Positions 11,671 to 64,000 of a stretch of 64,000 nt of DNA are shown piece after piece (position 1 is the stretch's first letter; each line of letters begins with the position of its first letter). Where the stretch lies: contig JASANH010000647.1 of the NCBI GenBank assembly GCA_030248295.1, forward strand, positions 1-64,000, in the 5' to 3' direction. The DNA is from Mesodorylaimus sp. YZB2_4. Its lineage: Eukaryota > Nematoda > Enoplea > Dorylaimida > Dorylaimidae. The notes below the pieces were generated by a model. That model saw only the letters and a list, made by a program, of their open reading frames with translations, searched no databases and had not been told where the DNA came from. The position numbers and the translations under genes were made by a program.

Positions 11671-14600
11671 CTACCATCGAATTTCCAAAACCTTTGATGA
11701 ATATAACAAGGCCACTAACATCAGTGAACCACAAAATGTAAATAGAAAAAACAAAAAGTCAGTCATTGTGGTATCGTCTGCCAACAGTCGAACAAGGGGA
11801 ACTCGAGATTTACGCATCTTGCGTTTTTTCCTTTTCCCGAAACACAAGATATTGATTATTTCAGCGATCAGGAAACCAACTTCGAAAATGGTGAAGAAAT
11901 CGAAGCCATTAATATTCTGTAGCATGTTGGAAATATCTTGAAGGAGTTCCCAGATCTGGAAATAGCATGTCATGTGGAAATGAAAAGAAGGAGAAAAAGT
12001 AGCTAACTGTAGTAGCTTCTTCCTCGTGGAATGTGACGGATTGGAGGCGTTCATAGTAAATCTCCAGCAATGCAAAATGGTATCTGAAAGCGGAAAGGAG
12101 AATCAGAAGCGAAGGTCGAGTATGAAGGTATCCTTACATTGCATTATCTTGACAGCCATGTGAGTAATTCTTTTCTTCGCAAGCCACTTCCTGAAAGAAA
12201 GTGATCATGTACATACATATTCCAGCTAGGGACCCTTTATGATACTGACTCAGTGCACTCTGTTCGATAGGGTAAGTGAGTTATACAACGCTCAAGTTTC
12301 TAGAATGCACTAACTTTACAGCCCAACTCAAGACTGACAGTACGGTGTCCTAACAACGATAGTATTATGCAGCGGACTGCAGGCGACGACTCAGCAATTA
12401 TACAATTCACCAGTTTACTATCGCTATCGCTATTTATTCGAATGCTAAGAAGCCAAAAACGCACCAGACGGTATGGCGACCACGGACACGCATAATAAGT
12501 TTGTGGTATGTTGCCTTGTCAAAGCACTCAACACCCTTACCTCCATGTGCTTGTTGGATAGGAGCAAAGCCGTGTTGATAACTGCGTCAAAATATATTCT
12601 TTCGCATTGGCTAATGCACCGGCAATTAGCCTCTTTAAGGTAGTCTTTTTTGCAAGATGTATTCTGATAAAAGTCTGGGCATAATGCTGGAAGAGAAGAT
12701 TGTAGTTTTCTCTCACTGTCATTGGGTCTCTACCATGGCTTACTTCTAACGCTGGTATAATTAGTGAACCGTTTCCTTTCGTCAAGACTGTTCTCATCCA
12801 CGTCTGAGCAAAAGCTGACGTTATTCGGCCTCGCGTAACGGGGGTCGGCGCATTTGCACTCCCTTATCACGTAGTCTTGGAGACACGACTTGGTGCACCC
12901 CTAAAATTGAATAGAATGGACCTTCTTACTCTCACTGTCAGACATCTGCTGAAGACCTTACCTCGGGATTGTAGGTGCCGTTGTAATAGTAAGATATGCC
13001 AGGGTGTGCGGGATTATCCCACGAGTCTGTGCACGGATTTTGAGGAGTGTCTTTCTTTTCCAACTTCGCCTAGAGAGTAGATTTTGTGAGGATTCGGAGT
13101 GAAACAGTCTACAGGGCTGTAAATTTCGAGCTCGCGCGCTCACAAGTGCTGTAAATCCCAACTTGTATCCCTTCCCTTACTGTGTATTTCTCCTTTGAAA
13201 TCATACTTCCCTAACTCCTGGGTTTCGCGCAATGGCCCTGCCCGCTGCAACTCTGGCTACACCCTTAGCTTACCATAGAGATAGCCATAGAAGTAAGCAG
13301 GCCAGGAGCAATATTATATCCATAGGTCTCGACAAATGGATACTCATCAGCAGGATGCGTGTACACTTTGAAACCAGCCGTCTGAGTGCATGGGTAGTAC
13401 TCGTGCTGTTGCAGACGCATGAGAAGTCGGAGACCTGAAACAGTACTCGCAATCAGAAGAGTGGGCACCAGCTAAAGACCAGAAGACATACCTCCCTGGG
13501 GTCCGCTGCGAGTCACATTCAACTCATCTTCACGCGGATTAAAGGTGAAACAATTTCCGTAAAATGGATTAAGCCTTGGCATAAACAGCCTAAAAATGAG
13601 CATTTCCTGGAGCAGAAATAAGATAATCAGATCTCACAGCTGACTTCTCTTCATCACACGGCTCGTCATCGTACATACAGAATTCGATCGTGTCATTGAG
13701 CTGATGACCAGCCTCATGATTGTTCCCGTTATGCATTGCGAATACGGCTGGTATGACGGCATTGGTAACTGAGGCGACCAGAGACTGTTGGTCGGATATG
13801 GTGTCCTAAAGAGACGTCCTAGGTGCAGTACAGCTGTCGTCAATGTGTGAGTTTGAGCACCTACCAAGATGCCACTGTTTTCCAATGCATTCACCAATTC
13901 GAGCGGCAAACCTAAAATCATGCTTTTCATCACAGCACAGACAATCTTTTGGCTGGTTCATACTTACCAACGTATTGAATTGTAGGGCATGGTTCTAGAT
14001 CGCATGACTCCTCTTCTTCAGTGTGAGGGCAACTGCCGGGTCCTATCGATGGCAAAATGATATCACGACTGCGTCTCCGGGTTCCATTTCCACAGTCACT
14101 GGAACAGTTGCCCCATGGAGCCCATTCGGATACGGTGCAGTCTGAAAAGACCAATATTATAGACAAAGTAGTCAGCAATGAGGTCTGACTACTCTGTACA
14201 GTGTGATTCATCTAGTCAACTGAAACACACTAGGTGTCCCGCCAGCAAAAATTGACGGAGAAGGATATCTGCCTGACCAACTTACTTCTTTCCAACAAAC
14301 ATCTTCCCAAGCCTAAAGTTTTGTTAAAAAAATACAAGGGCGGTTTTGGTTTCCAATTCCAATGGAGAATATATTTGGTATGGTCTTGATCATCGCTCAC
14401 TACCGTATCACCCGGCACATCGCTCGACCAGCTCAGGTGCCTCAATGTAGTGCCAGCAAACCCAGGCGTCGTCAGTGAGTAGCCGATGATACCACGAATA
14501 AAGAAATTGTGTTCGTTAACCAAGTACCATAAATCAGTCTCGTTATTGACCATGGACGAGTGAGTGGTCCTCGGGTTCTGAACCTCGTAGAGGGGTTGAG

Positions 14601-15352
14601 TAATGTCAGGAATGTAGAGCGTAGCAGCGTACAAAGTTTCACCCAAGGCGCTAGTTTGGTTCAGAGTGAATCCTCGTTCGATAGCATCAGCTACATTCGT
14701 AGTCACCAGATGCTGCCAACCGTAACCGAATCGGTACAGTTGAGCGCATGGGATTTCGGTAATGTCATCTGGAATAGGCAGTTTCCGTGTGCTTTAGACA
14801 GCAGAGAGCCATCTTCAACCTACTCAATCTCACGCCCATCTGACAAACCGGAGTGACTCCAGTCGTCTCGTTACAATGTACGTTCTTCCACGCAGCATCA
14901 GTTCTGACCACGCATCGACGTGATAGGTCATCGTGGGGTGCTGTGACGCCTGTTTGCCAGTACAGATCTTCCGAAGTCTTGCCGTCACTCACCCATGTCC
15001 ATTGACGTAATAAAAGTTGCAAGCCCAAAGCGATTGTCAGCCGAGGATAATTTTTAAACCTAAAACGAGGCGCACGATCGGGTTTTATCATTACTTATAT
15101 TCACACCAATACTTACACAGTATCATTGAACTGTTTATACTCAACAATGTGTTGAAACACGGGCAATCTAGCCTTGCGTGCGGCACATATGGAACGTGCC
15201 CCGACAACCGTAGTCTTATTTCGCAATTCAAAAAAGTAGCATTTCCCGGCAATGAGCTGCCAGCCTTCTTGGCAGGCGCCGTCTTGAGCTTGAACAAACT
15301 GACCAGGAAAAAATAAGGGAAATAAAAAAGCTACAATACACAATTGGCGCAT
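11671..15352 (-). CDS. Lectin-TSP1-DEG/ENaC (ASC) fusion protein, 784 aa
   Basis: Spliced model (minus): 15352-15117, 15059-14834, 14712-14286, 14141-13968, 13911-13865, 13805-13645, 13589-13492, 13434-13274, 13069-12962, 12900-12744, 12686-12541, 12190-12138, 12083-12008, 11955-11671; 2355 coding bases, an exact multiple of three. Order: cleavable-type signal peptide (MRQLCIVAFLFPLFF), C-type lectin domain (CQEGWQLIAGKCYFF to TPVCQ), an unrecognised ~140-residue domain, a TSP1 repeat (SEWAPWGNCSSDCGNGTRRR), then the ASC ectodomain: FYGNCFTFNP, RSGPQGGLRLLMRLQ, DEYPFVETYGY, GCTKSCLQ, CKCADPRYARP. One membrane segment follows (TIFEVGFLIAEIINIL). No TM1 lies between TSP1 and ASC. The TM2 filter position reads GFD where DEG/ENaC channels have (G/S)XS. 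A second hydrophobic stretch near the C-terminus may be coding or spliced away. C. elegans EGAS proteins (EGF plus ASC) are a precedent. Exon 3's end is the least certain. Confidence 0.85.
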
Positions 15353-15473
15353 GTAACATCACAGGATTGTCCACCTTCCACTCGACTTTTCATTTGTCTG
15401 GTCGTTCGACTCCGCAAAAACAGAACAGACTCTGAGATCCGTGTAAGAGCTTCTCGTCTGATCGAACTCTCAC

Positions 15474-15698: not shown

Positions 15699-16904
15699 TT
15701 GTGGAGGCGAGCTCTCTGGCCCGATGTGGAGAAGATCAATGCGATTTGTAAATGTAGAATCATGCCATGATTTGTATTCTCTTTAAAATGACCCTAAGCA
15801 TACCAGCAAAGGATATCATTTTTGGTTACCTCGTTCTTCTACCCAAAACCGTAGAAGTGATGATTCACAAACCGACTCTATGCTGGAAGTAGAAAAACCT
15901 TTGCTCTTTGGTATATTGAAAAACGGGAGCTGTCTGACGATGTGTAAGGTTGTACTGTACATAGATAAGGTATCCATTAACTTTACGTTCACAATCTTGT
16001 AGAGCATACTGTACATTTATTACAGGGTACCATAAATACCAAGTTACATATTTAGGTTTCTTCCTAGAACCTATTTGAGTTAAACGAACGCCCTCGCATA
16101 GTTTTCCAGGCAACGACAGTATACTGTATGCTAAATTTGCTATGACCCGGGCTATGTATAAAATACTACTGCTATATTTCAAAAGTCAAACAAGGTCACA
16201 AAAGCAAAAAAACGAAACTACTCTATGCTCATTGGTGAGTCAGGAAATGGGAGGGTGTCAAAGCTGATTTAGAGAATACTGTAAAGTCATAAAACTTTTG
16301 ATTCCGATATGTGGGATACCGATTTCAAATAACAGTTTTGCTGGGATTGATGTTTAATTAATGGCAATTTTTCTTCAGTATTGACCTGTCCTCAAAAAGC
16401 TCACTCACTCAGACCTCTCTCGTACCTCAATCAACCCAGTGGGGACCGGCAGGGGCCAACTTGATTTCAGGCTCTTGTTTCCCAATATCATGAACCAACA
16501 CGTGAATCCTGTTCGCGTCCATTTAGACACTATATTTCTTCAACAGAAGGTACACTACCAGTATTAGCACTGCCACACTTGTAGTGTACTGTACATTTAC
16601 TAACAATACATACAGCCATGCTAACGCACGGTTCAGAAGAGAAGAAGCAAAAACGGAATGTTCAGAAGTACAAATATACACAACAGCACAGTATTACATA
16701 GCACGGCACCGAAAAGTGACTAGTACCCGTCGTCCTCATCTGCTGCAGGACCTACAGCATCAAAACCAGCACCGGAAGTATGCAAGATTTCCAAAAAGGA
16801 TCTTTTGAGAAGGAAGTGAGAAGACAAAGGCGAACTGAAGAATGGTTTTCCAGCACTGGGCATCATGATGACGGCCAGCGAATTCAGAACTGAACAAGAG
16901 AATC
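15699..16904. other. Intergenic
   Basis: AT-rich sequence between the lectin-ASC gene and the ADAM gene's stop codon. Short frames are present, none with a recognisable domain or a convincing splice pattern. Confidence 0.5.
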
Positions 16905-19900
16905 CTAATTTTGGCCCTTTTTAAAACGGGCTGCCAAGGCATTGACTCGGCCGTCGTTCTTGGCACCACTATTCTTCTTTATTACTTCCGGGTTCTTCAC
17001 TGAACCCGTTTCTTGCTTTGTTGGCTGTACGGGTACGACAGCCTTTTTGCTAGAAGAGGAGGGAGCGGAAGACGGAACTCCAATGTCCGTTTTTAATCGC
17101 TTTTCCAAATCGGCCGCGAATGCAGCTTTTGAGGATACGCCGCCAGGTATTGCAGAAGAAGCTGATGTTGACAGTGGCGGTTTTGAAATCACCGGTTTCT
17201 CTTCTTTTTGAGCAACTGGCTTCAAGGCCTTCTTTGGGGGCATTATTTCCTTCTTCGGTGGCACTTCTGGTTTGGAATTCATAACATCGTAGTATGCATA
17301 GGATGACTGCTCCTGCGATTCCGTCGCCGAGTCAGTTGAATTGGCTTTCTTCATCAAATTTGGTTTAGATGAGGGCAAAATGGGTGGTTTGATCTTGTTT
17401 TCAGGGGCGGGATTACGGGCCTGGTTCTCCGCTTTTTGTAAAGCCATTTCGTTCTGCTGAGGCACTTTTGGTATCGAAGACGGCAAGGGTGGCAACAGAG
17501 GTTTCGAAGGCGCTCCGGGAATAGGCTTGGGCTTCAGACTAGAATTTGAGGGGTTTGAACTTGCGTGTTCTTCCGTCGATTTCTTGATCGGATGTGCAAA
17601 TGCTGCTGGGGAGAGAGGCTGTTCTTGATTTGTAGGCGCAGCTTCGAATAATTTCTTGACATTTGTGTATGAAGGTGCGGCAGTTTTTTGATTATTGCCA
17701 CTCGATTCTGCATTGTCCGCTGAAGGCGTCGGCGGTGGTGGGGCGGGTCGTTTCGGCAAGATCATGTCTTCTTCATCGAATGCGCCAGCATCTGCGCGCG
17801 TTTCGTCGACTTCTTCTAATTTAGCCAATGAATCATCGGTCGGTCGCCTTGGCCTGATTGGACCAGATTGAGCAAAAACAGATTGGCCATTGGTTGTCGA
17901 AGTGGCGCTGAGAGTCGTCGTAGAAGCGGCGATGGCTGCGAGGACAGGCAGGAGACCGTCTTGTAAGTTCACCGTGACGGTTGGTTTGGGAAATGACTTT
18001 GACGTGTCCGTGACTGCGCACGGTGTCGTTGTCAGCGGCCAAACTGGGGTAGTCGATGTGGCTTGTTTGGGAGCCGTTGGCTGACGTGCTGGCGATTTCG
18101 AAGAGGCTGTCGTGGTTGGCGTCGGCTTTGTCTTCGCTCCAGCATTTGTTGCAGGTCGAGGTTTGTTATTCTTAGTCTTGGCAGGGCCAGGCTTATCGAA
18201 TACTTTGACTACCCTAAAAGTAGGAAGCCTTTGTAGTGCCGCAAATGATCCATCGCCAACGATCCATTGAGTTGGTCAGTACGTACTTAGGCGATCTGAT
18301 CTTGCCTTTTTTGTACAGATATGTCAATAGAGCTGATACCAAAGGCAATATGACAATTACGAATATCATTACTCCGAGTCCAACGTTGAATCCAGAGCCT
18401 AAAAGCGAACGGGGCTTACCCTCAGCGAATAACAAGTAATGAAAGGTGAAAGCGAGAGACAGAAGCGAAAGGCGTGAAACAGAAAGTTCCCTCCTTCTGC
18501 ACAATTAGTGAAACCAAAAAGTTACACTAAAACGTATACGCACATGCTTCAAAGAGAATGCAGAATCCTGTATCCGAATCGCTACTATTACGGTTTATAG
18601 GCAAGCCAAGCGAGCCGTTATCATTCAGCATATGGCCCGTGGTTGCCTCCGGAAGTGAGGGCATGGTCCTAGTGGTGGTGCGAGTGCTCAGTCCCGGCTT
18701 TCCAGTCGTTTGCCGAGACAAGGACACCGTACTAGTCTGCGTCGGCATCCTGCTAGTACTGGTGGTAGTCGGTTCTGGAAGCAAAGCGTAAAAGCAACGG
18801 GCAAGGCACCCCAAATAAGAACATAACAGCTTTGCTATGCATCGTAGTTCCTCAAACGTCAGTAAGGCTTGCAGGGTTTTTTGCTTTGAAGATTCGCAGG
18901 TTGTGCAAGTCTAACAGCTACTGTGACAATACCGCAAGCCAAAGCAACTAAATGCAATCTAAAAACTACGAGCTGTCTACGTATAACCAGCTTTTTCCAA
19001 ACACAAAAATGCTGCTGTCCTTGCGAGCCACGTTTGAGAAAGTATGATTTGCATGAGAGACTTACCACCCAGAGAGGCAGGGCCGCTGTCGATGCTTCCA
19101 CCCAATCCAACGCTACCGCAGTCGGCTCCGCCAAAGCCGATGTTGCAGTGGCAGTGGCCGAAATTATTGCAAACCTGGGATAAGATCAGCATGATGAATG
19201 GTGCAAGATGATTTGTAGCATGCAAGTACTTACTCCATTGTAGCAAGTCGTGGCGCAAGGGGTTTCAGCCAATATTTGTTTGACAGGAACACATTTTCGT
19301 CCATTGCACATCTGAAAGGCCGAATGGTAGACACTCCGTATAAGTTCTTACTGGGCCGTACTGTCGTACAACTTCGCAATCTTTTACAACCTGATACATC
19401 ACGCAAAAATTACCTTGCCATCTCCACATTTAGCTCCGCTTGGCACAAGACCAGGATCATTTTCTTCTGATCCTAAATCGATCGATGCCGTGTGACATGT
19501 TGTGACCCTATCGTGATATCGGATTTCAGTGTACGCCATTCTGACCAGGGACCTGTCGCCGTATTGAGTTCTTTCAGTTTTGTGCGAACATTGCAACGAA
19601 CCGCACATTTTGTCCCTAAGAAACCCTTCTTCTACAGTAAGCTGAGACAAAAAAGCAAATAGCGCTGCACTCACTGATCGCTGCACGGGGTGTATGTCCC
19701 GTCCAGTTTCCGATATCCACAATTTCCTTGCATATCACCACGTGTATTTAGATTGTAGCACTCGCTAGATCCTATGGCTCCGCTTGAACCCCAAATGAGT
19801 TTACACTGACTGTCGTGAGAGCTACAGCTCCCATTGAAACAAAAGGCCTAAAATGGAATTTGAACAGTATTATACCGCTGTACATTCTCAGAATGCTTCA

Positions 19901-22900
19901 AACAGGTTTCTGATGGTAAATACAGGACGGTTCCTAGCGGTGCAGTCACGAGGAATATTCCCATATGGGATCAAGCTGAGTTTTTCGTCAGTCTAAAGCT
20001 CATCTCTGCGCCATGAAAAGGTTTTGCGCACCCGCAAATGAGTTCTTGATGCCTAGCACATAAGACCACGAGGGTACATTCGAGCGGGAGATCATCGAGG
20101 ATATGGCAGCACGAAACAATCATGCAAGCAAGTCGTACCTGTCCTCCCCTACATGATAGACCATTCTGCTTGTAAGTGTCATTTGGACAGATTTCCGACT
20201 TGCCGTCACAGTATTCAACCAAATCGCACTCGCCTCGACTTTCACGACATGAAGTCGCCATCGCTTTGAACTAAAACAAGATTCAGCTGAACCGCACCCC
20301 TGATTGAACCTTCTAGGCTTACCTTGCACGTGGACCTGTCGCAACACTCTCCATTTGCACAAATGGCGCCTTCGGCCAACTGGCAAGTGGTCGCATTGCA
20401 GCATGGATTGTCGCACACCTGTAACAGATAACCGTGTACAGATTTGGTCAGAGGTAGCAAAGCTATGGCCACTTACTCCAGGCAACCCGCAATCGCAGGC
20501 TTCTCCGTCCTCCACAAATCCATTGCCACAAATAGGAGATTTCGAGTCGAACAAGTTAGTCGGCTTATTCTTCAGACAAAAGTCCCCACCATGGCTGAGG
20601 GTCTGGGCCAGATATTCCATACTGCACGACGACCAGTACATGTTTGCTGCGCTGCTGAAACAGAAAACTATGAAAATCAAGCAAATAAAAGGAGCAGGAA
20701 CTGCACCTTGACGAAGCAGCCATCAGACATTTCTGTTGAGGGCATTGGCACGTGTCGTTGTCGTGTTCCATACCGAAATTATGACCCATTTCGTGAGCCA
20801 TCGTGGCTGCGACGGTGGCAGAGTAGCGGCTGTGATCCTAAACAGGCCAATTTAGCGAACTGCTTCCTCACGGGTCCTGGTGTGATTACTTACCATAACA
20901 ACAGCGCCAGATAAATCTAGTGAGCACATCGTGCCCTTCATGGCCTTGCCCACCACGCCACCGCTGAATGGCACAAGCCTAAAACCAGGTAAATCATCTC
21001 AGGTTCCTGCAAAGCCACATGGAATCCATACTTACGTGATCAGCTGGGCGTGGTCATTGGGCATATCAGGAAGAAGATGGACCCGCCGATAGCGGAGGAA
21101 GCTGTCCAACGTGGTATCTCCATTCTCAGTCACCGTTATACGGTCAGATTCCGACCAGATTTCAACACCGACTAAGGCCACCTTGACATTGACTGGTTGA
21201 TAATACTATAGTAGGTAGATCATACGACTTTGACCCGCAGGTTTCAAACAGGGCGCAAAGACACTTACCGAATTCACGAAGTTGGCATACTCTTTGGCAC
21301 GGCTAAGTAATCTTTGTTTATCGCCACCTGCAGTCCGATACTGAAAGGAAGCGTATCATTGAGTATTCATAGTGTCATATGACAGTATTGGATTTGACAG
21401 GAAGCAACTTAGATTGCATGGAGTTTATATGCACATTATAACGTGTTTGTCAAGGAAGGGTGTTAAAGAGACTTGGTAGACTTGGTCGTACAAGTATAGC
21501 AGCAAAATTTAAGCGTCAGATTTAACTTACAGCAGAATTATCGAAGACGATCGCCATTTCAACGTACAGATCTTTCCAAAATGCGTATTTCTTGTAGTAA
21601 TCTGGAAAGGACCCTGCTGCTCGTTTGGCACGGGACTTGTCATCGGATGCATCATTTTTTGAAATGTGACCTAGAATAGGCACACCAGTTTTCGATCGAT
21701 TGGACAATCATAAAAAAACAAAATGGTGATCTCACCGCATGTGTAATTGGAAGTGGACGAATTATCGTTTTCGGATGCAGGAATCAAAAAAAGCAATTTC
21801 GATGTGCTATTAAACGCAATATCGTAGCGTATCCCATTGAAATATATAGTTCCACTGAAAAACTGATCCCTGCACCTGATTGAATAAGGCTGCCTAATCT
21901 GTATTTACCGTATCCTGTTTTTGCACAAAGTGATCGCGGCATGCGATTTCTGATCAGCTTCTATTGCGCCCTCGTAATAGCAGAAATCCTTGGAATCCTG
22001 CAAAATCCCAGCGCCATCTTATGATGTCCAAGGAAACAAAAAAAGCTGAAATTCCTTACCGCAGTTGGAGAGCTGACAATTTTTTTGCCATTCTCGAAGT
22101 GTACCTCTTTGTAACTAGGAGCTAATAAGTCTCTGAAACAGAGCCAGCCAGTCAAAATGTCAGCACAAGGAGACTAGGGCACATACAAGTGTTTGGATAA
22201 GTGTAGCACCTGCGTTCGATTATTGACAGCCACTAGAACGTCCACGCGATCGGGATACATGTCCTGAAAAAAACCATATCTTAACACTGATTGTGAGAAG
22301 GAGATTGCAAATAGTGATTCGATAGCGCACACGAGTGGCTACGAATAATGGTCAAAGATAGAAAATGCGTCATCAAGGTCAATTACCAATCAAGACACTC
22401 ATAAGGATATGAGCGGGCAGTGATAGGCTATCTATGTAATGGAAAAAGCTCGCTGTGTCATCGCTGTTTAATTACCAATAAAGAAACCGAAGAGCACAAC
22501 AGAATGAGTCAGATAGGTCTTTTGAAGCTTGTCAGATTAGTTTTTTACATGACTCAGAATGAAGCACAAAATCTGCATGGCTGTAAGAAAATCACAGCCG
22601 GATCAGGATAGCTTGGAACCAAATCGCTCTCACAGCCCTCGATTAAGCAGACAACATTTAACCAAAGGAGACACGCCACTGGCCTGATCCCGCAAGGGGC
22701 ACCCGTTTAAAATACCACTTCTAAGCTGCTCGCCCATTTCCGGTCTACTATGAGTGTCTGGAGGGCGCGCCCGTGAGTCACAGCAGGGCACGGATGCCAA
22801 TTCGTGAGGCTGGACGTCGTCCCACAAACCTCGAGAAAACGAAAAATTTAACACAGCTTCGTCATCGCGACCAACGTCTTCCGTATTGAACCGAAGGATA

Positions 22901-47022: not shown

Positions 47023-47786
47023 TTGCTTGCAATTATCTATCCTGCAGTATTCACAATGAGCAAGAATAGGAAAACAGCAAAAAGCGAAGAGCGAGCGAGA
47101 GAAGATCAGAGAAACGATTACTACTGTCACAAGGGATTTTATTCCATAAATCTCCTGGCCGTTTCTGACTATCGATGCCGATTTATATACATCAATTTTA
47201 GCTTCCCTGGTAGGGCCCACGATGCACGAGTTTTTGGGAACTCTGCTTTATATCATGCTGCCCAAAACAGCACGTCATTCCATAATATCAACTCACACTA
47301 ATATCAACGGGGTAGATGTTGGTCGGTCCACTGCTCGTCGCTGATAACGCCTATCCATTAGCACCTTGGGTTATGAAAAGTTATGCCATATCCAGTAACA
47401 TGAGTGCCGCAGAAATTGAGTTCAATACGTGTCTCAATACAGCCAGGAACGTAATTGAACGCGCGCTTGGCATTTTAAAAGCTAGATTTCGCAGCTTACG
47501 TAAGTTCATTGACATGGATGTCTTGTGTGCGCCTGACCTGATTTTGGCTTGTTGTTGCTTGCACAATTTTTGCATGGGAAATAAGGAGGTCGTGTTGCCT
47601 GAATGGGGAGACGAGGCCCGATTAGATGAAGAAGCCATGATAAGAAACATCCTCAAAGAGATCGTTTGCGTGCAGAGGCTTTTCCTATCTATAATACTGA
47701 TGCCCCCGAGACTGCAACTGCAGATAGCATACGGGGCGCTATTCGGGATTTCTTGGCAGATCAGATGGATTAATTTTGTTTGGTAA
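47023..47786 (+). pseudogene. PIF/Harbinger DDE transposase, broken
   Basis: Frame 47023-47301 encodes YYCHKGFYSINLLAVSDY and FPGRAHDARVFGNSALY. After a stop, 47316-47786 encodes VADNAYPLAPWVMKSY, NTARNVIERALGILKARFR and ACCCLHNFC. These match the DDE_Tnp_4 core: the second catalytic Asp in VADNAYPL and the Glu in VIERALGILKARF. The first Asp block before 47100 is not clear. A stop near 47300 and a changed C-terminus show that it is inactive. No Myb-like partner gene is seen. Confidence 0.85.
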
Positions 47787-47929: not shown

Positions 47930-48099
47930 ACTTTTCTGCCGAGGAAAGACTAGAGCAGTTCTAGATGCGATTTCGCCTGAAAAACTTGAGAGCAGTTCTC
48001 ATTCTGGTGCGATTTCAAGGGGAGAATGGTTCTCGAGATCAATTCTCGAGAACAATTCCAGAATCGTTCCTGAGAATGATTCGTAGTGCGACTGCGGGC
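47930..48099. repeat. Harbinger-related terminal repeat, copy 2
   Basis: Close relative of 45541-45706 in the same orientation, ending TAGTGCGACTGCGGGC followed by TAA. It is dense in GAGAAC/GTTCTC palindromes. Confidence 0.7.
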
Positions 48100-48640: not shown

Positions 48641-48800
48641 TTTTGATGTTGTTGGTTTTACCAAAATTATAAATTATTGCGCGATTACCGACTTCGCTGT
48701 ACTAGAAGGAAGGGCTACAGTACAGTATAATTTCACTTTTGCACCATACTTTTTATTTACTGCACATCTTCGTAATCAGGAATACGAGTCAAATTACTAG

Positions 48801-49310
48801 TTAGAGGAAGTAGTCAAGATCGCTGGTGTTCATATCGCAGTTCTGGTACTGTTTCTCGAATCCTGTCACCCCGCCGATGTGGAAGGGCGTGATGAAAAGG
48901 ATCAGCGTCATCCACCCACCCGCGATCATCAGAAGAATATTACGATTCGTGAATGTTCGTTTGAACGCGGCCGAGTGAAATATGGACAGGTATCTGTTCA
49001 AGACCACAGTGGGGGCGAACCAGCACGCCTCGAGACCAGTAACGAATGTAATGTACGCGCACCAATCGCAGTAATAGGTTTTCGTGTCCGACATAATATT
49101 GGGCGGCTGGCAAATGAAGTTGCTAAAATGCAGGAGGAATTCTGCTGCTGTCACATTGGCCAACAGCAGATTCACCCGTTTTTGATATAGCTTGGCGTAA
49201 AATGTAAGAAATATGACGAGACCACAGGACGTCATGCCAGTGGTATAGAGTACGCACAGGGCTATGGTGCTGGAAAATCGTTCTTCGTAGGTGGCAATGT
49301 GGATCCTCAT
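48801..49310 (-). pseudogene. Truncated second copy of the intronless GPCR
   Basis: Residues 1 to about 165 match the receptor at 39721-40686 almost exactly; I see only a few substitutions, such as ATYEER preceded by IHI rather than IHN. The copy ends after TM4 and loop 2 (MNTSD), where it runs into unrelated sequence and a quick stop. Similarity also stops just upstream of the ATG, so it does not carry the upstream region. It cannot form a seven-span receptor. Confidence 0.9.
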
Positions 49311-49731
49311 TGTTCGTATGCCTGAAGTAAACTTTGGTGGATGGTTGTTCTAAAGGGGAGCTAATCTGAAAGCACTATTGGAAGTACCTTCTGCAGGGGA
49401 TGCTGAAAGTCGCGATAAGACCACAACTCGACGTTGATCATGCCTCAAAAGGCTCGGCGCATAGATGAAAAATATATAATTACTGGACGCTAGTGTTGTC
49501 AGATCTATCAAATGGCACATCAAGTACAAGGTAGAATGTGCAAGCTCTTTCGCAATTACAGATAATAATTGTCATTACTTCTGGCAGTTGGTTTCTGTCA
49601 ATTCTAGAGGCTGTGTGCATCTGCTGATATGTTTTAAACAAACTTTTCTGCATACAGGCATACAGCTAGCACTGAGAAAATGCCAAACACGAGAAAATTA
49701 ATTGCGTGTCCACTGAATCTGATTGAATAAG

Positions 49732-52893: not shown

Positions 52894-53223
52894 TTAGAAG
52901 TACCCTTTGTCCTTCGGCCCGACGGGATTTCTCTCAAGGCTACTTTTTGGGACGTACTTTTTTTCTTTCAGACTATCTACTTCTACGGCTGGAATCGAAC
53001 TGGTATTGCCACTTTCGTCTTGAGCCAACTTGTTTCTCTCTTCTGCTTCTTTCAATTGACGTTCTAATCGTTGCTGCTCCACTGACTTCTCGAGAAACTC
53101 GAATTCTTTCCTTTCTTTTCTGAGTCGGTTTTCTATATTGTATCCAATAAATCCGGCCACTAGAGCGATCGGGAACGTGATGTAAGGACCATAGGTGCGA
53201 AGAAGGACCCATGCTGGCCACAT
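52894..53223 (-). CDS. SMIM12: SMIM12-like small integral membrane protein, 109 aa
   Basis: A single exon starting MWPAWVLLRTYGPYITFP, followed by a membrane span (ALVAGFIGYNI) and a charged coiled-coil-like tail (EKSVEQQRLERQLKEAEERN). The N-terminus MWP...RTYxPYxTFP, the single span near residues 13-33, and the tail motif SLKEKKYVPKSSLERN fit the conserved SMIM12 family (UPF0767). The length is close to the family's usual ~90 residues, slightly longer in the middle. The function of SMIM12 is not established. The start is the only Met before the conserved block. Confidence 0.85.
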   Translation of the reverse strand: MWPAWVLLRTYGPYITFPIALVAGFIGYNIENRLRKERKEFEFLEKSVEQQRLERQLKEAEERNKLAQDESGNTSSIPAVEVDSLKEKKYVPKSSLERNPVGPKDKGYF

Positions 53224-54096
53224 TGTTAATTAACGGTTGTTCAGTGGTAGGTACAGGAAAAAACAAGCGACATGGACGAAGATTTCGTCTTTCCTTCCTT
53301 ACGTACTTGAAAGAGGGAGCTGCAATGATGAAAGGTGACAGAACTCTGGGCGCCTTTAGCAGACACCTTTTACGTCTAGTCTGAAGTAGCGCGTATTTGA
53401 ATGCTGAGGTACCTGCGCATCCTACTGTAGTCTTCGGCTCAGCAGAAGACCTATTCTTGCACAATATGCATAAACAATCAGGCACAGATCGTGGCACAGA
53501 TCGTGGCACTTTCCTGGGGTGGGCACTCACCCTGGGTGGTCTCTATGATGACTAAGATGATTTCAAGGGTGATCCTTTTTTCTATGGGTGATAGGGGGAG
53601 CTGGTTGTCTCTCGTCATTCCTGCAGGAGTGTCATCCCTGGGGCTGGACAGATTGAGGTAACTCGACTAACCTGCGAATGTGCGTAGTATAACTAGAGAC
53701 TACGTTACTCGGAGTGACGGCTTCTAACCAAAGCAGACACAAGAGCGTTCCTTTTGTTCCTATTCTGACAAGATATGCTTATGGCGCTAAGCTCATTTCC
53801 AATGAGCAGGCACGAAACACGGCACACTTCCAAATAGAATTGCCATGGCATAATTAAATAAGACACGGCACAGATGAAGTGCATTCATATCAGTATGGGC
53901 ATTCGCCGTTTAAAATCGTGCTGATAAGGACTGATTACCATGCACATACAGTAAGTGCTACCAAACAACCAGCACTCACATTCTACCTTGCATGTCCCTA
54001 CTGTGTAGCAATGAAGAATATTCTTAGATTTCAATATGATCTTATTAAAGTCTTGCTGGACTTCGGCTTTACTCATGATAATTCCTGTACTCACGA
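53224..54096. other. Intergenic
   Basis: Between the SMIM12-like start and the stop of the next gene. No other gene is visible; GGCACAGATCGT is repeated twice near 53495. Confidence 0.5.
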
Positions 54097-57000
54097 TCAG
54101 TGAGGAACCAGCGCAAAATCACCATGAACAGCTGGTTGTCTCGTGTGTCGTTCGTCCTTGATTTTTCCATTCAACTTTCGAAATCCTGGAACCAGTATAT
54201 CCAAGGTAAGGAATAAAACGTCGAGCAGCACTATGACGCCGAAGCTGCAGCTGATATTCATTACGTCAGCCACGTCTGACAGAAGATCCAGAGCCTGTGC
54301 AGAAGCAGTTCACTGCATAAATGCACAAAAAATTGCTAGGTACTTTTGTTTCCCTAGAGCTAGAGGATTTCAAAGTGGCCCGACTCATGGGTGTAAGTGA
54401 GGAGAACACAATTGCGGAGGGCTCATACGGGTAGGTTACAAACAGGTTCAGTAGACCTGCCAGTACAGAAGTACTGTTATCAAGCTTAATAATGGAGTAT
54501 GGAGACAATAAAAATGACAAGGAATGCCGAAATTATGGACCACTCTTCCATTATCTGCAAATTTAAATAACAGCCTGCATTTAAAAACTTTGATCCCATA
54601 GGGGAGATTAAACTCGCATCTGTGGAAACAGCATTCGATTCCTCTTGGGCTTCAAGTTTTTTTAGACTTCCTTACTTCTGGAACATTTGCAGACTTACAG
54701 TATATGCGGGCGTCTCATAATAATAGAATTGAGTCAAACGATCATAAAATATGTCCACAACAGCTACGTTTTCTCTGAAGAATAGTTCTAATTTCTGTAG
54801 TGTTTAAAAATGTTTTTTGCACTGACCTGATATGATCGACGCATGATTGATTGAGCGGCTTCTCGCAAACTCCAGCCTATTTAGAATAAGTTAACAATGA
54901 TACAATTCTATAACAGCTTTTATAATATCTTACAAACATGAGACTTTTCAAATGTATTTGAGATGTGGTTATCGATGTACTGTAGGATACATCCCTATAA
55001 AACAGTGACCCGATAAGCGCACCTTGAGATCACTTTGAAAATGCGACTTACAAACACGGCTGTGGGCAGTGGCAATCTGTTTCTTTCATCACGTCAACCT
55101 CTCCACAAGCTAGCATGTTCTCCAGACATGTGACTAAGAAAGAATCATGTTAGACAATTCCATACAGTAATTATTTTCCCTACCATCGTCCACTGTGCAG
55201 AATCTGACATGGGACGGTTTGGCAAATCTCGGGTCAGCACATCCGCATTGTTTGAAGGCAAAGTTCTGATAACACGCCCTCAGACATCCCTAGAAGCGAT
55301 CGATAAGCCACATACGAGTACAATATGTAGTCCTCTGGTAATTCATACCTCGACCCTGTAATCGCCTTGATAATAGTACCTGTTAGAGTCAGGGTTACTA
55401 ATGCAGTTTTGAATCCTCGAGACAGCTTCCTACATATACAATTGCTAGAACCACTTATGTCCTGGGTCCAATTATGCAAAGACGATGATTACCCTTGTCA
55501 CAACAATTGAATTCACGAGACCAGGACTGACGTAAAAGCCCGTTGTCTCTGGAAACGGGTCCTCCGTTTGCTGTTGAAGACTGAATCGGAATCCGACTGA
55601 AGTCGATGTGCACAAATACTCATCTTGGACCGCTTCCAAGACGAGTTTTAAACCTAAAAGATTTACGATAGTAGCGCATAGAATCCTTTTTAGTAGATAC
55701 GGTTACCGTAATCTCGTCCGGCCCTGCGCGCCTTACGCGGGCTTGAGATGTTGTAGTTGAAGGTGTAGCATGCGCCGAATTCTGCCGTTGATGTGGTTTG
55801 GAACTCTCTAAAAAATTATAGAGTAAAGACGGATGATGAGAAGGTCGGACCCTTACTGCTCTCTGAGACAAGATTCCTCTTCGTAAAAGCATTTGATGAA
55901 TAAGCTGCTCCATTGCATACTGATGGCCGCCATGATCTCTGGCGAGAGTTGGCCCGTCAAGTACGGAAGGATAGAATTGATGACACTTGTCTGAGCCATA
56001 GTGTCACCGAGTCCAATCTGGGGAAAAAGTTTGTTGAAATAAGAGCTAGGTAATTGCTGGTATTTGGTGAAACATTCCGAGCTATATGTAGGTGTTGTGA
56101 CAGATGGTGCAGAGGGTAACCCAGTTTTGCGCTGCGTACCCAGTAGATACTCTTTGGCGTGCAGTGGATGTAATTGTGGTAAGAGTACTTCAGCTATTCA
56201 GCATACTGTACCAGATTAAGACGTTGCAACAAAGTTTCTCCGAGCTGATTGTGAAACGGTTCTGTTGACGCTGCTGTAGAGGAAGAATCTAGTAAACCAG
56301 GTTGCCAAGTAAGTACTACCTGGTTTGGTAACCAGACAGGGCGATATCGCTTACTTAACGGTAGAAGGGTGGAGGGGTGGGACGTGGACGTGGTCGACGA
56401 CTCCGTTGTATAGGTAGTTCCTATCCAGAGGCCTGTGGTAATATTATTTTGTGCTGATGTGGAGGTAATTGAAGTCCATGCTAGCGCCCCGGACGAGGAC
56501 TGGGTGTTGGGGGCACTTGCTGAGGAGATCGCTGTAGCACTTGTAGATCTCGAGGAAGTTATTGCAGTAGTTATGGATAGAGTAGGAATAGATATGAAAG
56601 ACGGAGTGTGCGTGGCTGCAGCTTTTGAGATAGATTCAGATGCTGTAGGTTGAGAAGACGCGGGACTCTTTGGTTGAGTAGCTGACAAGTCAGAAGTTGT
56701 GGGAGATGCGGATGGTGCGATAATAAGTGGTGCGGTTGTGATCTGTGGTATGGATGTGGCCTGTAGTGTGAATGTAGTCTGTGATTCAGATGTAGTCTGT
56801 GGCGTGGATGTGGTCATTGGTGTGGATGTAGTCTGGGATGTCTGTGGCGTGGATGTGGTCTTTGGTGTGGATGTAGTCTGGGATGTCTGTGGCGTGGATG
56901 TGGTCTTTGGTGTGGATGTAGTCTGGGATGTCTGTGGCGTGGATGTGGTCAGTGGTGTGGATGTAGTCTGTAATACAGATGTAGTCTGTGATGTAGATGT

Positions 57001-58888
57001 AGTCAGTGGCGTGAATGAGGCCAGTGGTGTGGATGTGGCTTGCCGCGCTGATAGAGAGAGCAATGCGGACACGGTTGGCAATGTGGATGTGATTGGTGAC
57101 GTGGATGTGGCGATTAGGGAAAATGTAGTTGATGCAGTTGTTGTACTTGTTGTAGGAATATCTAAAACATGTATACATAATAGCAGTGGGGATCTAAAAT
57201 ATTTACTCTACATATTGTGCACGTTCAAGGACCACTATTCAATCCAGATTGGGACAACTTTTCTGGACGATGACTAATTAGGGATGATGTCCTGCTCTGG
57301 ACGAAAATCTAGACAGTTGTCTAGTTTTTGAAGCCAAGGCGTTATTTTATTGCTTCAATGTCGTATATTCAAAAATTGTCCATCTCACAGTCCACTCAAG
57401 GAGCATACGGCACACTCTTACTTGGTCTAAACGAACAATATCCGTTTCCAAGGTACATTATTGGCAAAAAAATGATAGCAAAGTCTTGAGCCTTCCAGTG
57501 CTTTAATTTATAAGTGTTTCCGCATTTCTTAATGTCTGGGAGGGTGCTGTTTGCCGAAATATATCCTTCGAAGACAACGCCGTCGGCGTCGACTGCAAAC
57601 CATGCATGAAAGGCTTTTGTAGTTGGATATTGGATCAAGGAGCCAAATCCAAGCATTCCGACCAATGTTCGTGAAAATAATGCTAGATATGACGTAGTAC
57701 CAACCACGGTCAGATCCATATTCGTAACCCATTTAGGATGGTTGATATGGTAGACTGGAACACTAAAGCCTGACACGCCTATTGTGTATATATACGCTTG
57801 TTGAAGGCTCTCCCAGGAGTACGGATAGTCGTAAGTCTGGAAGTCTTTCTCGCTGGCTGAGGAAAATCTGTGGCTACAATAACGATTCGTGCCACCGTCA
57901 TTGTACTGAAATAAGACCACGACTGCGGTGCTAGTTTCCGCCTGGGACCATCTTTGAGACCCCGCCCTCGCGGATGACCAAGACGGAACAGTTGTGGATT
58001 TTTGGTCTGTCCATTACAAGAAGTCGACTAGAAAACCTTGTGCAGCCCCTTATTTAAGATCAGGTGAAATTTTGAAAGCTGTGGAAACCGACTTACAGTT
58101 TTGTTTCCATAATTTGTTGAAAACTTAGCGCACGGCAGTCGAGTTGCTGAAAAAGATTTGCCGCTAAGCTACAGTACGATGCATCAATGACTAGACAGTA
58201 GGAACAGCCAGTTGGTGTCACACACTCTATCCTAACCTGATTCCCCAAGTCCACCCTCATGTCACAGCACAGGTTGCTGCAACGAATGCCTTTATGAAAA
58301 ATACCTCACCATTTCGCGCGCCTTGGACACAAACAGTGCGTAGTTTAGTTGTGGTCAGTTCAAAGGCACAGCTTCCAGGGTTGCCTCTTTTGAACTTGCA
58401 TGCGGACACGCCGTTGCTTAAGTTTCCCACTTCGCTGCACTGCCATCCCAGCAAGCTGCAATTAGCGATTTCGCCACTGTCTATATTGTACCACGGGTCG
58501 CCTATCGTCGGGAAGTTGGTTATCCCTGTCCAAATATCGTCGATGCTTTTCTGATTCCTGTCAAATCTTAAAGGTAGTAAATGGAAAAAGATGATTTACA
58601 GGAAGCTCACGCAAAAGAATTAAGCGCATCCAACTGCCCCTGGTCTCGAATAATGGGCAAAGTGGCAGATTCGGTCGTACATTTAGTGCGAGCGTCTTTC
58701 CACGCGTATGTCGAAGAAAAAACCAAAAAACAATAGTCTCCAATTTGACTATAGCCGCTAGCGCAATTGGGCACCGCCTCCAAAACATTGATCGAAATAC
58801 CTTGAAGTCTTTTTCTGCTTTTATACCCCCTCAAGAATTTTTTCAAGAACTTACCAAATGCGACAAATAAAATCCAGGTCCTTGTCAT
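54097..58888 (-). CDS. Lectin-mucin-DEG/ENaC (ASC) fusion protein, 1044 aa
   Basis: Spliced model (minus): 58888-58855, 58800-58611, 58557-58310, 58006-57422, 57161-56212, 56131-55857, 55807-55707, 55653-55493, 55429-55349, 55289-55184, 55133-55052, 54876-54827, 54772-54699, 54294-54097; 3135 bases, a multiple of three. Order: short signal peptide (MTRTWILFVAFG), C-type lectin domain (CASGYSQIGDYCF to LRTVCVQ), an unrecognised ~190-residue domain also seen in the 11.7-15.4 kb gene, a ~315-residue Ser/Thr mucin region, and an ASC ectodomain with FGACYTFNYN, GLKLVLEAVQDEY, PFPETTGFYV, GCLRACYQ, CGCADPRFAKP and CHCPQPC. A single TM follows near the C-terminus (FGVIVLLDVLFLTLDIL). No TM1 lies between mucin and ASC. 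The filter position reads SFG, not (G/S)XS. The next gene upstream is its tandem paralogue. Confidence 0.87.
56801..56935 (-). repeat. 45-bp coding minisatellite in the mucin region
   Basis: Three near-identical 45-bp units begin at 56801, 56846 and 56891. On the minus strand each encodes 15 residues of the type TTSTPQTSQTTSTPK. Less regular TTSTPQ/TTSTLQ units flank it. Because 45 is a multiple of three, copy-number change would lengthen or shorten the mucin stalk without breaking the frame. Confidence 0.92.
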
Positions 58889-59814
58889 CGTTTAAGCCAG
58901 CATGCGAACGATCTTTCCTTTTTCTGGCTGCGGTCTGCGCGCGGGCCAGCCGGATATACGAGTTCAGTATTTTACGTTTCGCAACGCGCCTGTGCTGTTC
59001 GTAGTGCAACAAAATAAGAGCCTACAAAATATCAGTGTGACTCGTTTCACCACCTAAAGCTTCGATTATGGACCCGCTTTCATTCCTACAAAGCAGATGA
59101 GTGGACCCTTTTTACTGGGTCTGGACTACTAAATCTGCTGCATAGCGACAACGCTGGATGCATTGAAGGACCAAGGCCTGGTTTCACAATCACGTAGGAA
59201 ATGTCCTAAATATTTGGAGACCCTAAGTCCTATCCTACCCCACTGTGATTCGATCGTCCTAACTTTAAGACACGTCCTAGCTGATTGTGAAACCAGCCCC
59301 AGGATCTTATTTTTCATACCAATGTACCTTTCATAATAAGCTCGTGAAAAGATTATTGTGAGGGGGATTATTTAGAACAGCTGGGTTTAAAACACTGATT
59401 GAAAATGCCAAATTTCATGCCCCTCGTGGGCCCGCATGGTTGTTTCAAAGTCTTTGCTCCGCTTACAGCACAGTAATTGGCTAAAGTTTACTTGAATATC
59501 CGACAAGATACTACAACAAGGGCTTCTGTGAATTTGGCGCCACTCACAGTCAGATGGGAGAAGATGTAAAACTCGACACATAAACACCACAAAGTACAAC
59601 CGGCCTTCTACGCGTTAAAATTTAGCAACTATTACACGTGAATTCCCCCATGTCACAACTGGTCTGTGGATCCACAATGGCAATGAGCAACACTCATACA
59701 CTAGCAAAACCACTGCACAAAACGGTCGACATGGTAACGTCAAGAAAATACATGTATCCCCGCTACTAGATCGGAGATGCATCTCAACTATATTGGAGCA
59801 ATCAGGTTATCTGC
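58889..59814. other. Intergenic spacer between the two tandem ASC genes
   Basis: About 0.9 kb that should include the promoter of the downstream gene. No other gene recognised. An inverted pair is visible at about 59165-59310: CCAAGGCCTGGTTTCACAAT and GATTGTGAAACCAGC. Confidence 0.5.
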
Positions 59815-62800
59815 TTATCGTGCGCCCCAGATCCTTCGATTCAGCGCATGAATCCGAGGGACTATTATGGCCAGAATTACGATGATTATTTCAAAAACGG
59901 CAGCAGGTCCGATATTGTAACTAGCGCTTAATACGTTTGTGAGTTCTGCTGCGGCATCAGAAAGCTGAAATGGAAACGAAGTAAACAGGTCATGGCCAGA
60001 CAGGTGCAAAAAGAGACAGTGCAACTTACTGAAAATGCTTCCGTCTCGTAGTAGTGAAGCTCAACTAGGTGGTTGTAGTAGATGTTTACTACGGCAATGT
60101 TTTTTCTGAAAGGTCACAAAATATTTCCTTTAGTAAATACACTCTAAGCGGGCACCAACTTCAGATATGCCATGCAAGAGATAAGCTCGGTCACGCTGAT
60201 ATTCGTTGTTAATTGGCAAGCTTCAGTCTAAAAAGAAGTGCAATTACAGCGCATATACACCATACACGCGCGCCAGGTCCGACATTGGGTCCCAAAACCC
60301 AATTAATTTTTTTTGAGGTTTTCGGGCTGGGCTGGGTCGGGTTTTTAGACAGGGTGGTTTTGGGTTGTGGAGGTTGAACTTTTTTCGAACCCAACCCAAA
60401 AAACCATTTTTCCACTTGGGTTCAGCATGACCTAGTGGATGGCTCCACAGCATACTGAAGCCGCAGCGATAAGATGTCCATTGGTTTCGAATCGACGGAT
60501 CCTGGTCTTTCAAAGAATTTATCCGGCGCCCCTATCTAGTCTAATTCGACATGTCAGTCTCCTTGTGCAGGAACTGAGGAATCGTCTGTGAGCAGATGAT
60601 ATCGAGCTCACCCGATCTCTTGTCGACTCGCAGTCAGAGATCAGGTAAGTCAGGTTTTAATTTTGAAAATTTGAAAGCTTGGCTGGTCAGAATCCATGAA
60701 GAAGCCTCTTGCTTTTTGGCAGGGGGTGGGCTTGAGTTTTCGGCTGGGTTAAAGAGTGATTTCTTGCATCGAAACAGGTATTTCCTGCAAATTTATTCAG
60801 AGACTAGTGAGAAATCATGTCTGCGAGAGGCAAATTTGGCAAAAATTTTTCCTCCGGCGTGGCGGGGGCACATCACCCGCCTCGCACCGCACCCCATCCC
60901 ACTCGGGCGATCGGCGATTCTTGAGCTAAATTACTTTATAGAAATTGCAAATTTTTTTGTTGGCCCCCCTACGACCCCAAAATCCTGCGTACGCGAGTGC
61001 ACTGACGAGCCGCCGCGGCTCTATTGGCGGGGAAATATGATGACGGAAGACCAGTATTTCCTTGTTCGAAGAACAGGGCTTGTAAGATTAGCGCCCTGGC
61101 GAAAATGGTCCCTCAGCTGGAGTCATGCTATTTGAAACTTGTAGCTCGAAAGGACATGGTCGTTGAGATACGTATGAGCAGGATACTTCTCAAATCTCCC
61201 TCGGGTTTTGTTTTTGAACTAGCTCAAAAATCGAATTTGGAGGTACAGTCAGATTAGCTCATGCCAGCTTATCACATGCTAGATAAGTTACTTCTGGTAT
61301 CCCTGAAGATCTTTTTGAAGGTTGATAAAGATGCGAGCGGGCACGCCTCAATCAACTGCTCATAAAAATGTGCTTATCGTAAGGTCAACTTTCAGAGTTA
61401 TGTGCACAGTCAAAATGTGCTACACGTAGCCCTGGAATTGGCCAAGGGCACGTGTAGCACACCTCACAAGCTCATTCTCACAGGAGACTTCCGAGAGAAA
61501 CTACCATGCCAAGATTGCTTTTCTTAAGGTCTTGTAGGAAGAAATGGTAGAATTTTCACAAACATGTACGTCACACTGATTCAGTTCACTGAACGAGAGT
61601 GGTTTTTTGGGTTGGGTATGCGTTCACTAGCGAATGGGTAGGGTATGACTTTTTAAAAATGGGTTTGGGTTGGGTTTTGGGTTTGGTTGGGTTCGACCTT
61701 CAAAATTTTTCGGTTGGGTTTGGGTTTAACTGTGAACCAATTGTCAGACCTGGCACGCTAGTACAGCTCGTACAGTCTAATACAGTACCTGCCACAAGAT
61801 ATGTACTGTAAGAGGAAGCTTCCGGGTGCTTAGAAGAAACTTACAATGTATCTGTTTTCTATATTGATTTCAGAGAGCGTGATGACAGTGCTGTAAATAA
61901 CTTCACTAAAATAAAAGAAAAGAGGGGTAATGCACGAACTTCTCCTGAACTGTCAATGTTTAAAATTTCACTGCCCCACCTGCATGCCTCTAAACAATGA
62001 CAGTCTCGGCTATTGATAAACTCGCCGTCCCCACAGGCGAGTAAAGTCTCCATGCAGGCAGCTGCAAAGCAATGTCATACCCTATAAAACTTTCCCTTCA
62101 CCGAATGCATACTATACCGTCGTCCAAATCGCAGTATCTGCTGCCGTTTGGCTTTGCGAATCTGGGGTCAGCACAGCCGCACATATCCAAGGCGACGGAT
62201 TGATAGCATGATCTTAAGCAGCCCTAATCGAACATTGGCTCAGGAAAAAATCATGCCTGCATTAATGTAAGTGTCAAACCTCGTATTTGTAGTTGCCAGG
62301 ATAGTAGTAGCGAGTTCTGTCTGGCTTGCTGATACAGTCTCCTATTTTTGTGATCACTTTCTACAAAGGTGGTGCAAGGCCAGATTTCAAGGACCGCGAC
62401 CTTTCTCAGAAACACTGTTTTACCCTGGATATCACAACCGATGTCACAACACCCGGCATGACATAGAAGCCATAGGTGGTTGGAAAAGGGTCGTCAATTT
62501 GCTGTTGCAGACTGAATCGGAAGCCGACCGAGGCCGACGTGCACAGGTACTCGTCCTGAGTCGCCTGCAGAATCAATTTGAGACCTGGAAGGGAGAAAAC
62601 TGAAGTAGGAGGACCTCGTGAGCGGTATACTTAAGTGCTACCGTATCGAGGGCCAACAGCATACGCGGAACGCATAGTTGCAAGGTCGAAGTTGAAGGTA
62701 AAACAATTGCCATAAGATGCCGTGAAATCGGTTTTAAAATTGCTGAAAACCAGCAGATTAGTGCAAAATTGGCTGACCTGGCAACCTACAGTATGCTTAC

Positions 62801-64000
62801 CTCGGGTCCAGGCAAGAGATTTCGTCATAATAACACTTGACGAATATACTCTCCCACTGCATTCCTATTTTGGCCCGTGTGTCCTCCGGAAGTCGAAAAA
62901 GTGAATAGGGCAAAGCGGCATTGGCTAATGCTAAGTTTGATATGTAATCTTTGTTCAACTGAAAGGATTTCTGATGGATAAAGGCAGCATCTAGTTAAGT
63001 ACCACGGTTTTCCTTACGTGCAAACCCGCGCGTTCGAAGAACCTTTGTACAAGCTCCACTTCTGATGATGTTTCGACATTCGGATATGGCGGTTTCCATG
63101 CTAAAGCATAAAACTGTTTTCAAAACAGATCCCTCTTCAGGAAATGCATTGACAACAGAAGCTCTGCTGCTGACGAGAATCTTATCGGCAGCCAAGTTCT
63201 CATAAACCTTCAGTATCAATTTATGAAACACGATGTCGTCGTCAGAAAACTGTACCTGCGCTCGTCGTTTGGGCGGTGCTCGATTTAGTTGACACTGCCA
63301 GTTTATGAGTTTTCGAAAATTTTTGCGTGGTGGCTAAGGTGGTACTTGTCATCGTACTGGTGACTTGCTTGAGTGGGGTTGTAGTCTCATCGTCAGTTGT
63401 CACAGCAGGATCGAATGCAGACGAAGTGGGAATAAGAGCAGTCGCAGTAGTGCTCGCTACTTTCGTCCCTTGCTTCACTTCATCTGTAACAGCTTGTGCA
63501 TCTGTGCTCCTGCTACTCGTAATTAACGTTGTTAAAGGAGAAGACATGGCTTCAGTGGTCAATATCTTGGTGCTTGATTGCAATGAAGTGATCGCCGTTT
63601 TTAGACTGGTTGTGGTCGCGGGCATGTTTGAGGGAGTGATAGTTCTGCCTGTGCTGGTCGAAGCAATGTTAGAGGATGAGGTAATTTCCCAGCATCCAGT
63701 TGGGTCACAATCAACTGTGGGAGTGCTCACAAGGGCAGTTGCATAGGTATCCACGTTATTTTTAGTTCCAGGTTTGACTTCAGTTGTAAAAGCAGGCATT
63801 GAGCTTGGGATGGTTGGAATGAGAGTGGATGAAGGTGTGGTGGCGAATGTCGTAATGATCGCAGTTGCAGGCATAACCTTTGGCGTGGCGATGGTCATGG
63901 TGGTCAGTGGGCTGTTGACATGCGTCGTCTTGATCATAGATGCTGGGATAGTTGTGGTGAAAGGAACCATCATGGTTGCGAATTTAGCTGTGGTTCTACT
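59815..64000 (-). CDS. Mucin-DEG/ENaC (ASC) fusion protein, 5' end beyond the window
   Basis: Exons seen (minus): <64000-63256 (Ser/Thr mucin), 63100-63018, 62958-62801, 62742-62642, 62584-62424, 62360-62280, 62223-62118, 62061-61980, then an unplaced exon within a 1.9-kb stretch, 60105-60030 and 59964-59815. Motifs: VELVQRFFERAGLH before the ASC region, YGNCFTFNFD, GLKLILQATQDEY, PFPTTYGFYV, GCLRSCYQ, CGCADPRFAKPNGS, CHCLEAC. A single TM near the end (AAVFEIIIVILAIIVP) is followed by a very short tail. Exons of 101, 161, 81, 106 and 82 bases match those of the gene at 54-59 kb exactly in length, proving tandem duplication. No TM1 is visible. The lectin part, if any, lies outside the window. 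Confidence 0.82.
60273..61758. repeat. Inverted pair of G-rich TTTGGG-type repeats in a long intron
   Basis: Bases 60273-60420 read on the minus strand as GGTTTTTTGGGTTGGGTT through to TGTCGGACCTGGCGCG. Bases 61600-61758 read on the plus strand as GGTTTTTTGGGTTGGGT through to TGTCAGACCTGGCACG. Both are full of GGGTTT/GGGTT steps, so they are inverted copies of one element, about 1.2 kb apart, in the expanded intron of the ASC gene. The tract can form G-quadruplexes. The sequence between shows no recognisable gene. Confidence 0.7.
61417..61460. repeat. 44-bp hairpin in the ASC gene intron
   Basis: GTGCTACACGTAGCCCT and AGGGCACGTGTAGCAC pair over 16 positions with one bulged base and a loop of about 11 bases. 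It could be a transposon tip or a structured intronic RNA. Confidence 0.7.

Follow-up and report, generated by a model that had tools for sequence, protein, structure and literature searches.

We consider three genes in a 64,000-nt stretch of DNA from the nematode Mesodorylaimus sp. YZB2_4 (NCBI GenBank assembly GCA_030248295.1, contig JASANH010000647.1, positions 1 to 64,000), to which we refer as the window. In each of these genes, named A, B and C, secreted-type modules are placed directly ahead of an ASC ectodomain, the ectodomain of the DEG/ENaC channel family, that lacks the first transmembrane span (TM1); the first-pass annotation of this DNA had proposed such an arrangement, and the gene models and the Pfam matches bear it out. 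The domain order, the missing profile positions, the altered motif in the second transmembrane span (TM2) and the extra cysteines shared by the three come directly from the computation. With somewhat better than even confidence, we take the three products to be paralogous, non-conducting type I receptors or accessory proteins derived from DEG/ENaC, where the topology, the lack of current, the part in channel assembly and the function are what we infer. The broader proposal, that an animal lineage turned the DEG/ENaC ectodomain into pore-less single-span receptors for recognition or adhesion, with lectin-like, thrombospondin type 1 (TSP1) and mucin heads and a cysteine pattern of their own, seems to us evenly balanced.

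The genes are all on the minus strand. Gene A (15352..11671, 14 exons, 806 residues) encodes a predicted signal peptide, a C-type lectin-like domain (CTLD), an unknown domain, a TSP1 repeat, the TM1-less ASC ectodomain, TM2 and a second hydrophobic stretch. Gene B (58888..54097, 16 exons, 1010 residues) has the same order up to the unknown domain, followed by a mucin-like region, the TM1-less ASC ectodomain and TM2. Gene C (64000..59815, 11 exons, 586 residues) runs to the window edge and is incomplete at its 5' end, and what lies inside the window is mucin, TM1-less ASC ectodomain and TM2. C and B stand head to tail, with 926 bp (58889..59814) from the stop of C to the ATG of B, while A and B are about 39 kb apart. 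The models were built by hand from three-frame translations, and splice sites were picked partly by frame. All 38 introns of the three models (13 of 13 in A) have GT-AG borders, and the frames end at a stop codon. The coding sequences, including the stop, are 2421 nt in A, 3033 nt in B and 1761 nt in C; the lengths of A and B are thus multiples of three, as had been pointed out before, which proves little alone because the sites were picked partly by frame. The predicted gene structure is consistent.

The ASC parts of B and C have 10 paired exons, 7 of them equal in length (101, 161, 81, 106, 82, 61 and 76 nt), and all 9 junctions among the paired exons are in the same phase. Gene A has exons of 161, 161 and 76 nt at places matching B and C, one of the two 161-nt exons being the result of a site chosen to match them; the sites joining exons 6 and 7 of A were set so as to retain the B/C phase. 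The intron leading from the module exon to the first exon of the ASC part is 56 nt long in A, 194 in B and 325 in C, in a fitting phase each time. Over the ASC part, the protein identity is 46-47% for B and C and 27-32% for A against either of them, the range depending on the alignment. The third codon position differs most in all three pairs (for B and C, 0.617 versus 0.404 and 0.292 at the other two positions), as expected for working genes under purifying selection, and the codon changes do look like such selection. A tblastn search of the window gives no further member of the family, with one match at chance level (E 0.81).

The ASC parts begin well inside the Pfam profile. In A (exons 5-14, 11836..13911) the match to PF00858 covers positions 138-453 of 455 (3.6e-47) and starts at residue 417 (base 13733); in B (exons 7-16, 54097..56017) it covers 145-452 (4.4e-49), and in C 120-437 (4.8e-44). 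For comparison, a tunicate ASIC2 matches the same profile from position 1 and a sea-star ASIC from position 3. Since the matches start at 138, 145 and 120, both TM1 and the first palm strand are absent from the three models. Does a TM1 exon hide elsewhere? Three TM1 pieces from other animals, taken as positive controls, score 6.5e-15 to 2.1e-22. Neither within the three gene bodies nor in the three minus-strand frames of the 5' flanks of A and B does Pfam match TM1 or the FPAVTIC strand that follows it, given the limited sensitivity of the scan and with the 5' end of C beyond the window; the unspliced scan of the gene bodies returns only later ASC parts (profile positions 148-385 in A, 297-428 in B and 298-343 in C). 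The scan thus shows no TM1-like exon, but it also missed many known exons. A search of the whole window for FPAVTIC-like strings, with three patterns in six frames, gives 4 matches, 3 of which are outside these genes and their flanks. Two hydrophobic open stretches in the flanks of A and B (16654-16526 and 59755-59669) are unlike TM1 and without ASC match. Hydropathy alone is a weak test for TM1, as 2 of 4 control TM1s peak at only 1.34-1.37.

TM2 is present in all three genes, with hydropathies of 2.01, 2.38 and 2.58 in A, B and C, but it has lost the G-x-S (GAS) motif of the family. In the alignment with five other DEG/ENaC proteins, all five of which have the motif, it is replaced by GFD in A (TM2 region 11836..11922), SFG in B and NIG in C (last exon 59815..59964), and the GG ahead of it is likewise lost. 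In C. elegans channels, deleting the GAS belt abolished the currents of DEL-9 and UNC-105h (PMC10424705). Because the GAS motif is gone along with TM1 and the HG stretch of the N-terminus, a normal pore is unlikely for these products, and the lost motif, which the first-pass annotation did not mention, speaks against their being conducting subunits. Also absent from that annotation is a second hydrophobic stretch that follows TM2 in the last exon of A (residues 779-797, 11701-11757, minus strand, hydropathy 2.32), either a real second span or an unspliced tail.

The cysteines form a pattern that the three genes share. Starting with the finger pair and stopping just short of TM2, each has 17 cysteines by count, and B carries an additional one at residue 961, within the TM2 stretch. 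In all three, the EY loop contains a cysteine 35 residues past that of YGNC, placed one position further along the loop in A, and a late cysteine pair precedes TM2; neither the pair nor the EY-loop cysteine is found in any of the five proteins used for comparison. As in ASIC1, the YGNC cysteine usually pairs with one in the first strand, and because this strand is missing here, our guess is that the EY-loop cysteine may act as the substitute. What is new here is the loss of G-x-S in all three genes together with the shared extra cysteines.

We turn our attention to the modules in front. The proteins of A and B start with a hydrophobic stretch and have small residues close to where the cut is expected, and in A the predicted signal peptide covers residues 1-22 and ends with V-Q-A (15287..15352, hydropathy 1.78). 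The CTLD is encoded by exons 1-2 of A (14828..15286, PF00059, 4.7e-5) and exons 2-3 of B (58310..58774, 2.9e-6), at 24.5 and 28.4 bits respectively, both just above the curated cut-off of 22.6. Sugar-binding C-type lectins usually carry the motifs EPN or QPD and WND. A string check finds none of them in either CTLD, and because both lack the usual motifs, sugar binding is not supported, nor is the sugar-sensing receptor suggested in the first-pass annotation. Exon 4 of A gives the TSP1 repeat (13968..14141; PF19028, TSP1_spondin, 2.1e-12; PF00090, 2.4e-7). Exon 6 of B gives the mucin-like region with a linker (56212..57161), in which the Ser/Thr-rich residues 336-609 are 51.5% serine plus threonine, and in C the mucin-like exon is open at the window edge (63256..64000), with 40.2% over residues 1-246. 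With E values up to 1 allowed, Pfam gives no EGF match in A, in B or in as much of C as lies within the window. The intron of C between mucin and ASC contains an open 89-codon stretch (63000-63270, minus strand) whose cysteine pattern resembles a finger segment by eye; it has no Pfam match and no in-frame join, and it is excluded from the model.

The unknown domain lies between the CTLD and the TSP1 repeat in A or the mucin in B, and most of it comes from a single exon, of 483 nt in A (14286..14768) and 484 nt in B (exon 5; the whole domain, exons 4-5 of the model, is 57422..58146). A global alignment of the two versions scores 40.5, which none of 1000 shuffles reaches (best 19, mean -30.7); BLASTP between them is not significant (E 0.19 and 1.1). 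The two versions are very distant. The domain has no Pfam match above the curated cut-off, and a search of the Protein Data Bank with the A version gives no match. Its one match below cut-off, PsbR at 0.0053 in B, was judged to be chance, as were SopE_N at 0.0033 in B and Prokineticin at 1.4 in the flank of A. DUF5648, considered as an identity for the domain, is without Pfam support, and a structure prediction from the two sequences reached a pLDDT of only 29 and was not used.

Combining this information, we propose how the family may have come about. An ancestral DEG/ENaC subunit would have lost its cytoplasmic N-terminus, TM1 and the early ectodomain, and given rise to the paralogues A, B and C. 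Their place in front would have been taken, in A and B, by a signal peptide followed by secreted modules (the start of C is off the window). The product would most likely be a type I single-span surface protein, with the modules and the disulfide-rich ASC part outside and the former TM2 as anchor. It would probably conduct no ions, because TM1 and the conserved pore motif of TM2 are lacking. Its role would most likely be that of an adhesion or ligand-binding receptor, or of a non-conducting partner of ordinary DEG/ENaC subunits, where the CTLD, the TSP1 repeat or the mucin stalk would hold the protein to matrix or mucus. The decoy and the accessory channel subunit suggested in the first-pass annotation may both still be considered.

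The structural concern is whether these are instead ordinary two-span DEG/ENaC subunits with large modules inserted in the ectodomain, whose TM1 exon is situated farther upstream, across a long intron or outside the window, and whose signal peptides are artefacts. We consider this rather improbable, although several observations speak for it or weigh against the receptor reading. The acorn-worm relative P0006 (Ptychodera flava) retains TM1 before its modules: it has TM1 with FPAVTVCN, then LDLa, then ASC from 129, at the same joint. The DNA of the predicted signal peptide of A is rich in pyrimidines, contains a possible splice acceptor and could be intronic, so that of the signal-peptide starts claimed earlier for A and B the hydrophobic character stands while the one in A is open to doubt. 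The 5' end of C is off the window, and the splice sites of all three genes were hand-picked. The unspliced scan gave no ASC match in 2 of 3 frames of B and 2 of 3 of C despite known exons there, and a split or divergent TM1 exon therefore has some room left. The earlier claim that no hydrophobic span precedes TM2 holds in that the models contain no TM1; less secure is B, where residues 247-265 in the unknown domain have a hydropathy of 1.46, matching two control TM1s (the A counterpart has 0.82). A loose FPAVTIC-like string, PALSLC (59157, minus strand), lies in the C-B gap, the 5' flank of B; it was rejected as a mark of TM1, having stops and no TM-like hydrophobic stretch ahead of it. On the other side, only 926 bp lie between B and the stop of C, and about 1.55 kb between A and the next upstream open-frame stop, neither interval having an ASC match; the starts of A and B are hydrophobic with small residues near the cut; and G-x-S is lost in three of three genes, unlike in P0006.

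A further alternative, in our view unlikely, is a regulatory subunit that still joins mixed trimers and there modifies or obstructs the pore of functional channels, as a dominant negative or a modulator: the thumb and palm cysteine frame and a TM2 with an acidic residue are retained, but no partner is known, and the first palm strand, TM1 and the GAS motif are missing. The retained acidic residue, at what we take to be the upper-gate site in the alignment (D in A, D in B and E in C), also counts against the non-conducting receptor, as does the odd number of cysteines, 17, from which at least one must be free or paired elsewhere. Another acidic residue is retained deeper in TM2. Asp433 is described as the upper gate in PMC10148893. 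Could neighboring genes, a lectin or mucin gene and then an ASC gene, have been wrongly joined? The joining by hand would allow it, but a joint of this kind is seen in all three genes, each time in a fitting phase and across a short intron, and the ASC part alone would have neither a start nor TM1, so that we give this very little credence. Least of all do we expect decaying pseudogenes, for which the lost pore motif might be cited, because the 7.2 kb of modeled coding sequence (the three lengths given above) is open and third codon positions differ most.

The rest of the window contains other genes and mobile elements. Next upstream of A is an ADAM-type metalloprotease gene with reprolysin, disintegrin and cysteine-rich parts (16900-21500, minus strand), and just downstream of B a small protein of the UPF0767 family (52897-53229, minus strand), which we take to be SMIM12-like. 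Two frames of rhodopsin-family G-protein-coupled receptors (39724-40779 and 48804-49349, minus strand) look nearly identical along the part common to both, the second frame being shorter, and probably represent a recent duplication. Pieces of a BEL/Pao-type long terminal repeat (LTR) retrotransposon (1381-8432, minus strand, two frames scanned) match Pao A17 peptidase, integrase zinc binding, DUF1758 and, below cut-off, reverse transcriptase, with simple repeats reading KPKP/GLGL nearby (334-648 and 8795-9103). A further LTR retrotransposon frame with reverse transcriptase RNaseH and integrase is located at 36488-37975 (minus strand), and a DDE_Tnp_4 transposase piece, presumably Harbinger-like, at 47316-47783 (plus strand). 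Rfam gives no match in the window at gathering score.

If the receptor reading is true, a major family of ion channels has an ectodomain able to exist without a pore, as a receptor, and these genes would help to part the ectodomain's own roles (binding, assembly) from gating. It also suggests one spot in ASC where animals repeatedly insert or swap modules. The protein searches, which rely on short exact words and so have limited sensitivity (5080, 8000 and 2350 candidates scored), gave 7 proteins: two from lancelet, the tunicate ASIC2, a TSP1 protein, a sea-star ASIC1C-like protein, the acorn-worm LDLa protein and a shark BASIC-like protein. None of the relatives returned by these word-based searches combines a CTLD or a mucin with ASC, which is weak evidence of absence. 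For lectin together with degenerin or ENaC, one search of open-licence PMC papers lists 2 papers, judged by title and abstract, and another lists none. Because the acorn-worm and lancelet proteins have ASC from 129 after their modules, the joint in A, B and C is a place where other animals also bear modules, and we infer that the modules were inserted before TM1 was lost.

How do these genes compare with the known systems? The closest found, by the joint, are the acorn-worm and lancelet proteins, and not EGAS, which the first-pass annotation had named as the nearest precedent. P0006 of Ptychodera flava is alike in its extracellular modules (4 matched LDLa stretches) and in the resumption of ASC at about 129, at the same joint; it differs in retaining TM1, FPAVTVCN, the HG string and GLFIGVS in TM2, and in having LDLa rather than CTLD, TSP1 or mucin. 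The discoidin-kringle-ASC proteins of Branchiostoma (P0001, P0002) are alike in having secreted modules in front, ASC from 129 and one span by hydropathy. They differ in that P0001 retains G-x-S as GLS, and P0002 has the same stretch; their models have no hydrophobic start and may miss 5' exons. A truncated ASIC2b was rejected as a precedent without TM1, since what it has lost, according to PMC8410034, is a stretch of 71 residues from the intracellular N-terminus. The EGAS proteins of C. elegans (EGAS-1 to EGAS-4), compared by description, are named for EGF plus ASC and are alike in this, with EGF in place of CTLD, TSP1 or mucin; in oocytes they gave no current above water-injected controls (PMC10424705). 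ENaC and ASIC share the ASC ectodomain, with matches to that part of gene A at 3.5e-25 for ENaC beta and about 1e-16 for ASIC1, but they have two spans, the GAS belt and a cytoplasmic N-terminus, and no secreted modules.

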